NCBI GenBank assembly: GCA_025054955.1
Contig: JANWZE010000053.1
Coordinates: forward strand, 1 to 40,352
DNA: 40,352 nt
Direction: 5' to 3'
Origin: Blastocatellia bacterium
GTDB lineage: Bacteria; Acidobacteriota; Blastocatellia; HR10; J050
Part shown: in pieces, positions 20,204 through 26,520 of the stretch
Numbering within the stretch: position 1 is the stretch's first letter
Layout of the letters: every line of letters starts with the position of its first letter
Position numbers and translations under genes: made by a program
Notes under the pieces: generated by a model
What the model saw: only the letters and a program-made list of their open reading frames with translations
What the model was told of the DNA's origin: nothing
The model's database searches: none

Positions 20204-20295
20204 CCAACCATTTCGATCACGGCATCCGAATTGAGCGCCACAATCAGGGACGACCTGCTGCGACAGGTTCACTGGCCAACCATTTCGATCACGGC
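20204..20295. repeat. 20-base direct repeat copying the lipocalin gene 3' end
   Basis: CCAACCATTTCGATCACGGC is present exactly at 20204 and 20276 (72 bases apart). The second copy lies inside the last codons of the minus-strand lipocalin-like gene (residues AVIEMVG), the first just beyond its stop. Flanking bases are partly similar, so a slightly larger block was duplicated. Confidence 0.9.
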
Positions 20296-21228
20296 GCCGC
20301 CATCGGTGCTGATTTGTTCTAATGGTCGGCCCTGACGACTCAGATAAAGCGTCGCTCGCGCAAGACTGTTATTGGCGACTTCAAACGTTCCTGAGCAATC
20401 GGTTTTCAAATAGGGCAAGCGATGGATGCCGGGACCGCTGCCGTCCACAATAGCGATCAGCGAGGCGCCCTCGGCGTTGGAGCAGGCAAACATCCATTGC
20501 AGATGTTCGCGGTCACGGCTGATGGTTTCAATCCCCTCAAACGTGTAGCGCATTCCTTCGTGCCACAGGAGCGCTTTACGGAATTGCAATCCCAATGGGA
20601 TTTCGTATTCGAGCGCTTCAAATGTGCTGATTCGACCGGTCGAATCGAAAGCCAGACAATGCGTCCAGTTCCACAGATGGCGATGACGAAAGCCACAATT
20701 ATGACCCTGCAATCCGTAACCGAGCGGCTCGCCGCGAAAGCTCTGATCATCCAACGTCACTTCGCCAGAGAAGACGGCATCCGAATGTGGCGTGCGCGAG
20801 AATCCAATCCAACCGACTTCAGTCATCGAAGCGCCGAACGTCGAATCATAGCGTAGCTGCCAGCTCACCGTGTGCCCATCCACACAGACGCGCCCCTTGC
20901 AAGACCGCTCATCAATCATGTTGTCGTCGTTGATACGCAGTTGCAACGGCTGACTCGGCTCACTGAGCGAAAGCTGCGTTTGTGAAAATCCTTGAATGAA
21001 ACTTTGCGGACGACCCTGGCGTGGAAACCACGTGGCCCACACTTGCGCGGGCATGCCCAATGGATTGCCTGCGCACCCACCGCCAGCAGGCCGCCCCAGA
21101 TTCATAAGCAAATAACGGAACCACCACGCGCCGCTGCCATCGGCCAGCATGAACCGTAGGAACCAGACTTCATATCGCCGCCGGGTGGACAACGTCGAAT
21201 AGATCGAATTGAGTGATTGTTGTTTCAT
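20269..21228 (-). CDS. CrtC/AttH-like lipocalin domain protein
   Basis: 319 residues without signal peptide. The N-terminal [12 protein letters not shown], then [10 protein letters not shown], matches the AttH/CrtC-type lipocalin-like superfamily (hydroxyneurosporene synthase and relatives), which binds or hydrates hydrophobic lipids or carotenoids. Later segments such as [17 protein letters not shown] and [13 protein letters not shown] suit the two-barrel fold. Its ATG overlaps the stop of plsC by four bases (ATGA), so it is the last gene of the lipid cassette. This is a family-level call based on motif resemblance. Confidence 0.6.
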
Positions 21229-22013
21229 ACGATTTCTGATTCAATGCCCATGGCTTGATCTACAGGCCGTGAGACAATCCGGTGCACACGTTCGACCAGC
21301 GCGTCAATCTCGTGTTTGGTCATCCCGGTCGTTTCGATGGTGTCGTGTATGTAGACGACGATCTTGGAGGGGTAGAGCATCCAACTGCCTTTGCGATTGA
21401 ACTCATAGGAGCCGACGATGCTCATCGGCACAATTGGGTAGCCGGTCTGTTGCGCCAGGATGAATGCCCCTTTCTTAAACGGGCCAACGCGGCCATCGGT
21501 CGTGCGCGTGCCTTCGGCAAATACGATCAGGCTGACGCCATTGTCCAATGCTGCTTGCGCTTGCCGGATCATCTTCTTCAGCCCTGCTGGGCTGCTATCT
21601 TTGGGCACAGGCACATTGCCGAATCGTTTCATCATCCAGCCGTAGGCCGGAATCTTGAAGTGAGACTCTAGCTCCAGGCCGCGCACGAATTGCGGAATCG
21701 CCGAATAAATCACGAAGGCGTCAAACAAATTGACGTGATTACAAATGAAGAGACTCGTGCGCGTGCGATCAAAGCCGGGCGCATATTTCACTTCAAATCC
21801 CACACCGGCGACGCGCAGGATATTGCGAAAGAACCAGCGTTGCGGGCGATCATTTTTTCGCGGATCAACGAAAATTCCTAAGATCACCAACAGGGTGCAA
21901 ATCGGGAAGAAATGCACGATGCTGGCGATCCACAAGAGCAGGCTGCGGACGATCAGGTAGAGTTGCCGGAGACACGAAGCCGTGCCTGTGCTGCGTTGGT
22001 CGAGTTTGTTCAT
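21225..22013 (-). CDS. plsC: 1-acyl-sn-glycerol-3-phosphate acyltransferase (PlsC family)
   Basis: 262-residue membrane-bound acyltransferase that moves an acyl group from ACP or CoA to a lysophospholipid acceptor. The catalytic NHxxxxD motif is at His93-Asp98 (NHVNLFD) and the acceptor motif EGTR at 167-170 (VFAEGTRT). One membrane helix lies near residues 25-48. I start at 22013 because that ATG overlaps the lipid-kinase stop as ATGA. A longer frame from 22058 would overlap the kinase by 49 bases. It sits directly after a lipid kinase, so it may act on that enzyme's product. It may be a specialised copy rather than the housekeeping enzyme. Confidence 0.9.
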
Positions 22014-22909
22014 GCGACCACGTTGAGGACCGATGGCAACACCTCCAGAGATTGACAATGTACGCGGAGCACTTCGCCATCAATCATGATGTTGACCGGT
22101 TGATCCATGTAGAAATCAACGCGGCGCGCGGGGCGATGCCACAGCGCCGGATGGTTGATATGCGAGCCGTCGTACATGTTGGCGAAATTCAGCAAAAAGC
22201 CGAGCCGCCCCACAGCCCAGCAGACGATCTCCACCAGCCCATCGCTGACGTTAGCATGTGGAGCCAGCCGCATCGTGCCGGCGGTGTACTGGCTGTTGTT
22301 GAAGATCAGCAGGGCTGTTTTCGTCTGATCCATCTCGGAGGCGCCGTCAATGCGCATTGGATAGACCACGCGCTTGAACCGCGCCATACAAAGTATCACC
22401 GCCAGCCCATAGCCCATGAAGCTCATCCACTTGAAATAACGGTTGGTGAGCGCGCAAACATCGGCGACAAAACCCAAGCTCAGAATGTTGATGTAGTAGA
22501 CAACGCCCTCCCGATGCGTCAATTTGATGACATCGCACGGGCGTGAACGGCCGCTCAAGAGCGATTCCATCGCGTAGTCTAAGCCACGCTGACTGAAGTC
22601 ACGCAAAAACGAATTGCCCGTGCCGAGCGGCAGAAACCCAAGAGTTGGCGGCTCGCCATCAAGCGCTTCGGGGAACAGGCCGTTGACGATCTCGTAGGCT
22701 GTGCCATCGCCGCCGACAGCAATGAAGCGACGATACCCACACCGATACGCCTCGCGCGCTAACGCCACAGCGTGCCCGGCATGCGTTGTCTGAGCAACGT
22801 CAATCTGCAGTCCAGCAGCCCGCAGACGCGCTAGCGCCGGCGCAAACAGCTTGCCGCAACGTCCATGTCCGGCAGCCGGGTTGACAATGGCAAGAAATGA
22901 ATCTGTCAC
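22010..22909 (-). CDS. Diacylglycerol/sphingosine kinase-like lipid kinase
   Basis: 299-residue ATP-dependent lipid kinase of the DAGK catalytic family (YegS/DgkB type), which phosphorylates diacylglycerol or related lipid alcohols. N-terminal VNPAAGHGR is the nucleotide-binding loop; GGDGT at 66-70 and LPLGTGNSF at about 94-102 are the signature motifs. The start is GTG 22909, overlapping the ligase TGA as GTGA, so it is translationally coupled. The alcohol substrate cannot be read from the sequence. Neighbours suggest it makes the acceptor for PlsC, or phosphorylates a lipid made by the ligase/ACP pair. Confidence 0.9.
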
Positions 22910-24615
22910 AGTGGTACAATGGCCGTTCGATCCACTCGGCTTCGTATCTGTTCGGCCAGCACGCCGCGTTTGATTTTGAGCGAAGCCGTGCGCGGGAAAT
23001 CATCCGGCCAGATCAGATAACCGCCGACGCGCTTGAAATCAAGCAAGCGCCGATTGCGCGCCACCAGGTCGGCCTGTAGCGCATCATTCCAGCTCTGACC
23101 CGGCTCCAGATGCACGACAATCACCAGTTGCTCGCCGGTCATTGCGTGCTGAGGCCAGATGTAATTGGCGGCAAAGACGCAAAATTCTTTGACCGGCAGC
23201 CCTTCAAACGCTGCTTCGACATCTTCGGGATACACGTTCTTGCCGCCTTCCGTCACAATCATGTTTTTCTTGCGACCGACCAGTTGCAAGTGACCCATCG
23301 CGTCAATGCGACCCAGATCGCCGGTCATCAACCAACCGTCAACGATCGTTTCAGCGGTCAATTCCGGATCGTCCAGATAGTGCGACATAATGGCCTTGCT
23401 GCGTGTGGCCACTTCGCCGATGCCATCGGCATCCGGATTGACGATTTTGATTTCAATGCCAGGTAGCGGTTTGCCAACGGTATCAGCCCGAAACGGCTTC
23501 AGATCATTGACCGTGATGGCCGTGCACGCTTCGGTCAATCCGTAACCGTTGGCCACCGGAATGCCGAGGTCATAGAAAAATTGCAGCGTCGCCGGTTCGC
23601 TGAATGCGCCGCCCACGATGATCGTCTGTAACTCGCCGCCAAATGCCCGATGGATTTGCGGCAACAAACGACGGCTCAAAGCCAGATTGGGGCGCCGGCG
23701 CGTCAGCGCCCGATTGATCGCAATTAGGAGGTTCAATATAGTTCGGCGCCACGGCGAGAGCTGCTCAAATCGGGCGCGTAGCCCTTTTTCCAGATTCTTC
23801 AGCACCATCGGCACCACACTCACGTAGGTGATCTTGTATCGGGTGAAGGCCTCGCGCACGTATTCTGGCCGTAACGTTCTCAGATGCACCACCGTCGCCC
23901 CGCAGATGAACGGGCCGATGAACCCGACCATGAAGTCAATCGCGTGATTGGTTGGCAAAATGCTCAAGTATCGCACGCCCGGCCAGAACGGATACCACGA
24001 GGTTAGCGCTATGCATTGCTCCAGGTAGTTCTCATGTGTCATCACGCATCCTTTAGGCCGTCCGCCTGTGCCTGAGGAGTAAACGATACAGGCTGTATCG
24101 CTGCGACGTCGCGGCACAAAGGCCGGCTCCCCTTCGACGCGACACTCTTCCCAGCGTCGCGCGCCGGCCAGTTCAGCATCGGGCGGGGCTTCTGTCACCA
24201 GCACAGCCTTCACGTCCAAGTCCTGGAATCCTTCAGTCTGCATCATCGCGCGCCACAGGTAGTATTCAATGATCAGCAGCTCCGCTTTGCAGTGAGCGAG
24301 CAGTTGAAGATGCTCGCGGCTGGTCAACTTGTAATCGAGCGGCACAAGCACGCCACCACGATAGAAGATGGCGTAAGCTGACATCAAATACTTCGACTGG
24401 TTGGTCATGATGATGGCAGCGCGGTTGCCCTCGCCAAATTCGATCTCTTGCAAGAATCTGGCCAGTGGCAGCGCCGCTTGCTTAAATTGCTGATATGTCC
24501 ACCGGCCGTTTTCTCGGTCGCGGTCTGCTTCGATTAGACACAATTGATCCGACCATCGCTCCAGCGCATCACGCAATGCCTCCCCCAATGATTGATATTG
24601 ACGCAAGTCGAGCAT
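22906..24615 (-). CDS. AMP-forming acyl-CoA/acyl-ACP ligase
   Basis: 569-residue ANL-superfamily adenylating enzyme that activates a carboxylic acid with ATP and passes it to CoA or to a carrier protein. The P-loop [11 protein letters not shown] is at 179-189, NGYGLTEA at 356-363, TGDLG at 431-435, [20 protein letters not shown] at 447-466, and the C-terminal lysine region SLKIKRG near 550. The gene starts inside the stop of the ACP gene (TGATG), implying that the two proteins work together. A fatty acid is the likely substrate (long-chain ligase-like), but ACP as acceptor is inferred from position only. Confidence 0.88.
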
Positions 24616-24857
24616 CAGAGTCGTGTGTGAATGCGTTCAGCTAACGCGCGAAAATCGCTGACCCCTTGCAGCTCGTAATCGGGCAGTTCGATATGAAAGT
24701 GATGTTCCAAGCGCGTCAACAGCTCCAACGCTTGAAGGCTGTCAATGCCCAGCACGGCAAACATGTCATCTTCAGGCCGAAGCTGATGGCGCGGCACATT
24801 GAAATGAGTGGCGGCCAGCGTCAAGACCTCATCTGTTATTTGTTCGAGTGTGCGCAT
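24615..24857 (-). CDS. Acyl carrier protein (phosphopantetheine type)
   Basis: 80-residue carrier protein. Ser40 in [11 protein letters not shown] is the 4'-phosphopantetheine site. Sequence and size match ACP/PCP carriers, though it differs from typical fatty-acid AcpP (GADSLD). I start at ATG 24857, with GGAG 10 bases upstream; a TTG at 24872 is an alternative. The stop overlaps the ligase start. Its dedicated position suggests a specialised acyl-loading pathway separate from bulk fatty-acid synthesis. Confidence 0.9.
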
Positions 24858-24936
24858 ACAGCAATGCTCCAATGTGACGACCTTGCCGGAACTGGATATG
24901 GTCTCAACACCTCTTTTTCCTGTGTCGGCGCGGCAG

Positions 24937-25938
24937 CTAGCCTATATTGGCGCTGGCTCGCTGCCGCTGGCGAAGATACCGGCCAAGGACGCCACTCCAC
25001 GGCGGAATAACAATGGAGACCGCGCCATACGCTTGCGCCTGACAGGCCAAGCGAATGATCGGCTTCTCCTCATCTGTGTCAATATAGCCAAACTCCTTCA
25101 TCCGCTGCCGTTCAAATGAACTGACCGGCGAGAGCTTCTCAGCGCCACCCAGCACGCCTACCCAGCACGTGCCACATGAGCCGGCGCGACATTGCACCGG
25201 AATCGGTCCTTCATTGATGATGCACCGAGAATCGCGCAGGTGATAGGGACGCTTATCATGAGCCGCCGCTGTCGTCAGGTGTTGTGAATTGATGAGCTTG
25301 AACGTCGCATGCGGATCATTTTCATCAAACGTGATCGTCCAAACTTTGTCCGGATATTTGAACCAGGCCAGCCATCCTTGCCGATCATCCCGCGCACGGC
25401 AAGCCAGCACTTGCTGGGGCGAGCGAGCCGCAACGTGCTGGGGCAGCCTGATCGCCCCATCGGCTTGCATGAAGGCGCTCAGCCCAACTTGTTGCACCGT
25501 CATAAAACCAACGGCGGTGATCCCAATGAACAAAGAGAAGGGCTGGTTCAGCTCGTTGCTAACCTGCTGGGCGACGTGCTTAATCTGCTCGGTCAGCGTT
25601 TGGCCTGACAGCACGCTGCTCGAGTTTGCGTGCGCAATGATCGCTTGTTTCACCTGGGGCCAGTAACGATGACCGTAAAGAAAGGCGTGCGACGAATCAA
25701 TTTGATCTGTCAATCGGTAGCGCCCTTGCAAGACGAGTTTGTTGGCCAACGCTGCCGGATCGTCTGATTGCTGGAGCGCACGAGCCAAAGCCAATGGATA
25801 AAAATGGAACCAGATGCGCGTGGCTGTTTGATCAACTTCGTGTATCAACGGCAGAAGCGAATCCATCACCTCGGCCCATGCCTCATCATCATGTTGATTC
25901 AAGAACGTTTCAAACAGAACTCCGCTGCTTGTACTCAT
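24937..25938 (-). CDS. Protein with C-terminal [2Fe-2S] ferredoxin domain
   Basis: 333 residues. The last 100 hold a plant-type [2Fe-2S] domain with Cys250, Cys255, Cys258 (CRAGSCGTC) and Cys299 (RLACQAQ), the C-x4-C-x2-C-x40-C pattern. The first 230 residues are helical, with a hydrophobic stretch near 135-155, and match nothing I recognise. Electron transfer to an oxidoreductase is the obvious role. It is the first gene of the minus-strand lipid cluster, 79 bases before the ACP gene, so it may provide electrons for modifying the acyl or lipid product (inference). AAGGG precedes the ATG. A TTGACA at 26047-26042 has no convincing -10. Confidence 0.85.
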   Translation of the reverse strand: MSTSSGVLFETFLNQHDDEAWAEVMDSLLPLIHEVDQTATRIWFHFYPLALARALQQSDDPAALANKLVLQGRYRLTDQIDSSHAFLYGHRYWPQVKQAIIAHANSSSVLSGQTLTEQIKHVAQQVSNELNQPFSLFIGITAVGFMTVQQVGLSAFMQADGAIRLPQHVAARSPQQVLACRARDDRQGWLAWFKYPDKVWTITFDENDPHATFKLINSQHLTTAAAHDKRPYHLRDSRCIINEGPIPVQCRAGSCGTCWVGVLGGAEKLSPVSSFERQRMKEFGYIDTDEEKPIIRLACQAQAYGAVSIVIPPWSGVLGRYLRQRQRASANIG

Positions 25939-26278: not shown

Positions 26279-26335
26279 GGAATCACTCATGTGCTATCGC
26301 GCGCCTCGAAGGATGAAAATGGTTATTTTCAGGGA
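26279..26335 (+). repeat. Dispersed repeat family 1 copy
   Basis: GGGAATCACTCATGTGC, then GCGCGCCTCGAAGGATG, then AAAATGGTTATTTTCAGGG. It has the same order as the copies at 475 and 26461. Confidence 0.8.
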
Positions 26336-26460: not shown

Positions 26461-26520
26461 GGAATCGCCCATGAGCTCCGCGCTGGCCACGAAGCATGAA
26501 AATGGTTATTTTCAAGGAAG
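26461..26520 (+). repeat. Dispersed repeat family 1 copy
   Basis: GGAATCGCCCATGAGC, then GGCCACGAAGCATG, then AAAATGGTTATTTTCAAGG. This is close to the consensus. Confidence 0.85.

Follow-up and report, generated by a model that had tools for sequence, protein, structure and literature searches.

Overview of the locus

Here we describe a six-gene lipid cassette in a 40,352-nucleotide stretch of DNA (hereafter the window) from a Blastocatellia bacterium of the phylum Acidobacteriota. The window is contig JANWZE010000053.1 of assembly GCA_025054955.1, referred to below as contig C53 of genome G000. The cassette comprises the following genes, given from its upstream to its downstream end:

24937-25938, minus strand: Fer2-domain protein with a C-terminal plant-type [2Fe-2S] ferredoxin domain (PF00111, 8e-8)
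24615-24857 (from ATG), minus strand: stand-alone acyl carrier protein (ACP; PF00550, 2e-12), DSL site present
22906-24615, minus strand: AMP-binding (AMP-forming) acyl ligase (PF00501, 3e-65)
22010-22909, minus strand: YegS/DAGK-type lipid kinase (PF00781, 4e-28; PF19279; TIGR00147)
21225-22013, minus strand: PlsC/AGPAT-type acyltransferase (PF01553, 3e-21)
20269-21228, minus strand: CrtC/AttH-type double-lipocalin protein of 319 amino acids (from its predicted structure)

Re-reading of the sequence bore out the coordinates of the six genes, the head-to-tail overlaps of five of them and the 79-base gap as they appear in the initial annotation. The ACP and ligase genes overlap by 1 base (TGATG at 24615), and overlaps of 4 bases follow between ligase and kinase (GTGA, 22906-22909), kinase and PlsC (ATGA, 22010-22013) and PlsC and the AttH-like gene (ATGA, 21225-21228). 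The 79 bases separate the end of the Fer2 gene from the ATG of the ACP gene, for which an alternative TTG start at 24872 is also open.

The family names given to the cassette genes were likewise correct, as judged by Pfam and NCBIfam and, for CrtC/AttH, by the predicted structure. The cysteines of the Fer2 domain are arranged as C-x5-C-x2-C plus a distal C. The kinase scores 144 bits against TIGR00147 (cut-off 118.65) and has both the GGDGT catalytic domain and the YegS C-terminal domain (PF00781 and PF19279); its VGGDGT motif is invariant across 22 relatives. PlsC contains HX4D (H108-X4-D113, in TTG-start numbering) and FAEGTR motifs that are kept in 17 relatives. The catalytic-Lys region of the ligase is present, and the sequence leaves undecided whether ACP or CoA is the acceptor.

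A palindrome-like sequence, TGAAAATGGTTATTTTCA, occurs at positions 510-527, 26314-26331 and 26497-26514 of the window (one copy with a mismatch), where none is expected by chance. The copies at 26314-26331 and 26497-26514 lie just upstream of the Fer2 gene.

A larger gene cluster in relatives

The search for close relatives of the ligase covered 247 phylum genomes and 162 class genomes, and 32 stretches around cluster genes were read. The ACP gene is found just upstream of the ligase gene at all 24 ligase loci read (seven families and two named metagenome-assembled genomes (MAGs)), and the 24 ACP relatives (66-78% identity) all occupy this same slot, a recurrence beyond what chance would give. 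The initial annotation, which proposed translationally coupled lipid genes served by an ACP and a ligase of their own, had named unconserved neighbours as a sign against it; the neighbours are kept in relatives.

The full run of genes in relatives is longer than the cassette. It begins with a fusion of about 790 amino acids between a HAD domain and a fatty acyl reductase (FAR; the fusion is hereafter referred to as HAD-FAR), followed by a NAD_binding_4 thioester reductase, a PS_pyruv_trans-like protein (hereafter the pyruvyl-transferase-like protein), a second AMP ligase, a crotonase and then the cassette. The cassette part consists of ACP (sometimes preceded by KAS III), ligase, kinase and PlsC, and sometimes the AttH-like protein, or an esterase. 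In G014, G079, G135 and G246 and in the MAGs L019 and L024, the cassette comes immediately after the first half, with all genes in the same direction, although in some of these HAD-FAR survives as a remnant at the contig edge. In the family termed f3, the halves lie side by side in divergent orientation, and the [2Fe-2S] gene sits between them, upstream of ACP. An intermediate arrangement is seen in G001, in which the first half, the cassette and an AttH-like gene share one contig but are tens of kb apart.

In the genome of the window, the first half is located on a second contig (C85, 42872-50110; HAD-FAR at C85:42872-45235). There is no crotonase gene at this locus; its orthologue was not searched for across the whole genome. 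Given that the cassette and the first half each lie inside their own contig, contig edges are not an obvious cause of the split. The six genes, which had been read as a whole route, are rather one half, the second, of a system of 9-10 genes whose first half is on C85.

The distribution of the genes agrees with this organization. In the phylum sample, the ligase, HAD-FAR and the pyruvyl-transferase-like protein are present in the same 6 of 247 genomes. Within the class, the ligase occurs in 20 and HAD-FAR in 19 of 162 genomes, 19 of which are common to both, and the pattern covers at least seven families (the Fisher p values for co-occurrence are tiny, but relatedness overstates their significance). 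Co-inheritance across both samples indicates that the cassette and the first half form one system, and we have high confidence that the cassette makes up one half of a larger, co-inherited lipid pathway that includes a fatty acyl reductase.

An ordinary fatty-acid salvage or phospholipid-repair operon, in which the ligase and PlsC would act in an Aas-like manner, the kinase would recycle diacylglycerol and the link to FAR would be loose, is improbable. Each of the proteins does come from a common family, and separate Aas-sized ligase fusions exist, though in the same genomes. However, these genomes already hold other ligases and other DAGK paralogues, and the ligase and HAD-FAR have a restricted distribution and are nearly always inherited together, which is not what salvage predicts.

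The Fer2 and AttH-like proteins

The genes at the two ends of the cassette are less constant than those between them. Five other genomes (G001, G004, G005, G007 and G008) also have the order Fer2-ACP-ligase-kinase, their Fer2 and ACP genes being 0.1-1.1 kb apart. Counting the window, a Fer2 gene thus precedes ACP in six genomes from two families (60-65% identity), with the cluster cysteines kept in all six, which upholds the assignment of the [2Fe-2S] gene to the cassette. Fer2 homologues are also present in many Acidobacteriota away from such clusters, and a chance neighbour was the explanation favoured at first; it was dropped because the gene lies beside ACP in four genomes of family f3. 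A single-sequence structure model of the Fer2 protein (pLDDT 37) was too poor for its N-terminal domain to be interpreted.

The AttH-like protein of the window has no match in Pfam or NCBIfam, and a search of PDB sequences with its profile returned nothing. Structure prediction was therefore needed. An AlphaFold model based on a 32-sequence alignment (pLDDT 82.5) aligned with AttH (2ich_A) over 265 residues (Z 22.2, root mean squared deviation 3.5), and with 7a0q (Z 21.4) and 9g2i (Z 19.9). Over the whole chain, the predicted double-lipocalin fold resembles those of AttH (NE1406; 2ich), kievitone hydratase, the decalin-forming cyclases CghA/Fsa2/Phm7 and 25-phosphosteroid lyase (Z 19-22), with the next, unrelated rows of the search dropping to about Z 5. 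The CrtC/AttH call was right as a fold; identity to these enzymes is just 9-12%, whereas the fold is shared over the entire chain, and the predicted fold implies no particular activity. The family has a conserved GHNCGxRHRxxWxWTH-type motif.

All 34 relatives of the AttH-like protein are from Acidobacteriota, and most come without a cassette. The gene lies inside the cluster at four loci (the window, L019, L024 and L058). In G001 and G002 it is found elsewhere in the genome, and about 30 Terriglobia-type MAGs have it on its own. Its place after kinase and PlsC recurs at three loci besides the window, in direct adjacency in L019 and L058 and, in L024, separated from PlsC by two small genes. By eye, the pair in this last gap (L024:8245-9041) resembles a PIN toxin and a Phd-type antitoxin. 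In the Terriglobia-type MAGs (L021-L051), the stand-alone gene is convergent with an alpha/beta hydrolase gene; PhaR- and phasin-like genes are nearby (by eye), as is a wax-ester-synthase-like gene in six loci.

The initial annotation had proposed looking for the six-gene order in Acidobacteriota. Part-orders recur in relatives, but the full order with both Fer2 and CrtC is seen only in the window. Similarly, the AttH-like protein is a member of the cassette in the window, whereas few clusters have one and it is often found without a cluster. The Fer2 and AttH-like proteins look like accessories.

A possible ether-lipid pathway

The cassette had initially been described as belonging to no familiar pathway, but the combined activities of the two halves are those of the Myxococcus elb operon (PMC9131029). 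In M. xanthus, ElbD, on which most alkyl and vinyl ether lipids depend, unites FAR1-like, acyl-CoA synthetase, ACP and AGPAT parts in one protein; the operon also encodes the HAD protein ElbB, ElbC (of no assigned role) and NAD-dependent proteins (PMC9131029). All four ElbD activities are encoded in the genome of the window, with the ligase, ACP and PlsC at the window and FAR on C85. In comparisons made with acidobacterial ElbD-type proteins, no single ElbD-type multidomain protein was found in this genome, in which the FAR query matches only the HAD-FAR fusion on C85; other strong NAD_binding_4 matches (frames of 3053 and 711 amino acids) lie in contexts unlike elb. ElbD-type proteins were found in none of the 20 class genomes with the ligase and in no sampled ligase genome, and an elb-type match is present in about 114 of the 142 class genomes without the ligase. 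As a separate observation, a frame of about 3,050 amino acids at L107:8040-17192 (G000:C115) ends in a strong thioester reductase domain and probably encodes a non-ribosomal peptide synthetase or polyketide synthase.

We put at about even the chance that Acidobacteriota have a dispersed, ElbD-free, elb-like ether-lipid pathway of which the cassette supplies one half, namely acyl activation, phosphorylation and acylation, and regard an ether lipid as a product for and against which the case is evenly balanced. From the gene content, its conservation and co-occurrence, the match to the ElbD activities, the absence of ElbD and the Tes/Mss neighbour (see below), we infer the substrates, the order of steps, the ether-forming step and the product as follows. 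The ligase would activate a fatty acid, probably iso-branched, and load it onto the private ACP (CoA being the alternative). FAR, supplied by the other half, would convert the acyl-thioester to a fatty alcohol or aldehyde, and the chain would be joined to a glycerol unit as an ether, for which the second reductase and the pyruvyl-transferase-like protein are the candidates. The lipid kinase would phosphorylate the alkylglycerol, and PlsC would add a second chain to give 1-O-alkyl-2-acyl-glycerol-3-phosphate. This intermediate could enter ordinary phospholipid synthesis, or could be passed to the neighbouring Tes/Mss-like radical SAM enzyme, which would join chains into membrane-spanning lipids. 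The AttH-like protein may bind or tailor the product, and the [2Fe-2S] protein may serve as electron supply. An unusual membrane lipid, as initially suggested, is probably the product.

A different product is also conceivable, namely a fatty-alcohol-based or glycosyl- or pyruvyl-modified phospholipid, or a neutral lipid, rather than an ether phospholipid. FAR would then make an alcohol, the pyruvyl-transferase-like enzyme would modify a polar head, and the kinase and PlsC would recycle or build an anchor. The alcohol-forming FAR with its Sterile domain and the PS_pyruv_trans-family protein are invariant in the cluster, in which no ether-forming enzyme was recognised, and the stand-alone AttH-like genes of Terriglobia lie (by eye) near PhaR-, phasin-, lipase- and wax-ester-synthase-like genes, indicative of storage lipids. 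However, the kinase and PlsC indicate phosphatidic-acid chemistry, every ElbD activity is present, Tes/Mss homologues lie beside clusters in four genomes and, by eye, no wax synthase was recognised in the ligase clusters. We consider such a product rather unlikely.

The ether-lipid pathway would gain an additional outlet through the Tes/Mss-like neighbours. On C85, a radical SAM protein homologous to Tes (7tol, 3e-65) is encoded on the same strand as HAD-FAR and 3.9 kb before it. Its NF045702 score of 318 bits is below the Tes cut-off of 450, which points to a bacterial Mss-like relative and not to a Tes equivalog. In G079 a homologue precedes HAD-FAR by about 150 bp, and in G001 and G002 one follows PlsC at about 350 bp; one is thus near one of the two halves of the cluster in these three genomes and in G000, whereas in most cluster loci none is adjacent. 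A further homologue lies beside an elb operon in G145. Mss-type bacterial homologues have been proposed to join chains into lipids of the iso-diabolic type, and iso-diabolic acid glycerol ethers abound in Acidobacteria of subdivision 4 (PMC13274423). G000, G001 and G002 are taken to belong to this subdivision, the class Blastocatellia. That the pathway feeds membrane-spanning lipids is a tentative proposal with less than an even chance. The same-strand run that precedes HAD-FAR (G000:C85:32488-42185) encodes an Aas-sized ligase fusion, a radical SAM protein, the Tes/Mss-like radical SAM protein and a second radical SAM protein with weak B12-type matches.

A combined scheme appears unlikely. 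In it, the two halves would together form the glycerol-ether bond of membrane-spanning lipids of the iso-diabolic-acid type or of the branched glycerol dialkyl glycerol tetraether (brGDGT) type, independently of ElbD, Ger and AGPS. The kinase would act on alkylglycerol and the ether would be made by the pyruvyl-transferase-like protein or the second reductase. The [2Fe-2S] and AttH-like proteins would tailor the lipid, and by analogy with 25-phosphosteroid lyase the AttH-like protein could be a phospho-lyase acting after the kinase.

Several observations weigh against an elb-like ether-lipid pathway. No known ether-forming enzyme was recognised among the cluster genes. The pyruvyl-transferase-like protein, the second ligase and the crotonase have no elb counterpart, and conversely no LarA-like ElbC was recognised in the cluster loci, a genome-wide search not having been made. 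Whereas stand-alone ElbB homologues retain D-x-[DE]-G-T at motif I, and with it the HAD nucleophile, the HAD domain fused to FAR has lost the nucleophile: motif I reads WRVEGSL (once WRAEGSL) in all 19 fusions that cover the site, including L062:16499-18889. With the catalytic aspartates of motif I lost, this domain is unlikely to be a phosphatase. The ligase forms its own clade on a long stem (support 100/100) in a 43-row tree, apart from the acyl-CoA synthetase domains of ElbD, and the cluster kinases also form their own clade, apart from elb-linked kinases. The mutual exclusion of ligase and ElbD, striking when genomes are counted, follows family lines and loses significance when tested by family or within the phylum sample (p about 0.27-0.42); it is thus weak independent evidence. 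Finally, Tes/Mss neighbours are present in only 4 of about 25 cluster genomes, two of which are sisters.

A main source of the brGDGT climate proxies is believed to lie in the ether-bound and membrane-spanning lipids of Acidobacteriota, yet elb or AGPS genes are present in only some subdivision-4 genomes, and the ether-forming pathway has been termed unclear (PMC11868695; PMC10087280). We found no description of the cluster in the open-access literature. The present analysis names a definite 9-10 gene set in ElbD-free genomes, co-inherited and sometimes beside a Tes/Mss homologue. The cluster could serve as a genomic marker for ether-lipid potential overlooked by ElbD searches, and could help to account for climate-marker membrane lipids in soil bacteria without elb machinery. 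With just two short loci, the ether-lipid question becomes directly testable by expression.

Comparison with known systems

Two of the closest known systems are compared here. The first is the sphingolipid route of Caulobacter, which relies on an ACP and an acyl-ACP synthetase of its own together with a ceramide kinase (PMC9386255, PMC10331486). Like the cassette, these ceramide genes (AcpR, acyl-ACP synthetase, ceramide kinase) thus combine a private ACP, a ligase and a lipid kinase, and on this precedent the private ACP and an acyl-ACP synthetase could feed a serine palmitoyltransferase, with the kinase as a ceramide kinase. We regard a sphingolipid-type route as highly improbable. The Caulobacter route uses serine palmitoyltransferase, whereas this enzyme was recognised in none of the 32 loci read, which have FAR and PlsC instead. 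Among the eight best PF00155 matches of the genome, which were read by eye, the sole clear alpha-oxoamine synthase resembles the amino-acid enzyme KBL. Such a route would also have no place for FAR, the second reductase and PlsC.

The second is the elb operon. The acidobacterial elb operons that were read encode ElbB, a LarA-like ElbC, ElbD (FAR, AMP-binding, ACP and acyltransferase domains) and ElbE. Their ElbC gives matches to PF09861, the family of lactate racemase N-terminal domains (1e-38 and 1.5e-39; L119:12455-14053 and L123:10461-12128, with equivalents in L118-L125 and L129). The FAR domains of acidobacterial ElbD are the closest to the cluster FAR among those found in the phylum (34-38%), and the HAD domain of the fusion is about 30% identical to acidobacterial ElbB. 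A YegS-type kinase is located near elb genes in 6 of the 12 elb-type loci that were read (L118, L123, L124, L125, L126 and L128), which makes it plausible that such pathways include a kinase step, the phosphorylation of an alkylglycerol ahead of its acylation by PlsC. In L123, L124 and L125, FAR is a separate protein of 500-630 amino acids beside ElbB, ElbC and the kinase, an architecture between those of the ElbD operons and the dispersed cluster.

We considered whether the cassette is an ElbD cut into pieces. On the ligase and kinase trees, this was rejected as descent and kept as analogy; with ligase and kinase in separate clades, the cluster would be elb-like in function but is not an elb operon by descent. 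In the elb operons, ElbD is one protein of about 1,450-1,530 amino acids, whereas in the cluster its counterparts are separate proteins at one or two loci. In both Myxococcus and Acidobacteriota, elb operons nevertheless share with the cluster a FAR with a Sterile domain, an acyl ligase, an ACP and an AGPAT-type acyltransferase, together with a HAD domain and a NAD-binding reductase.

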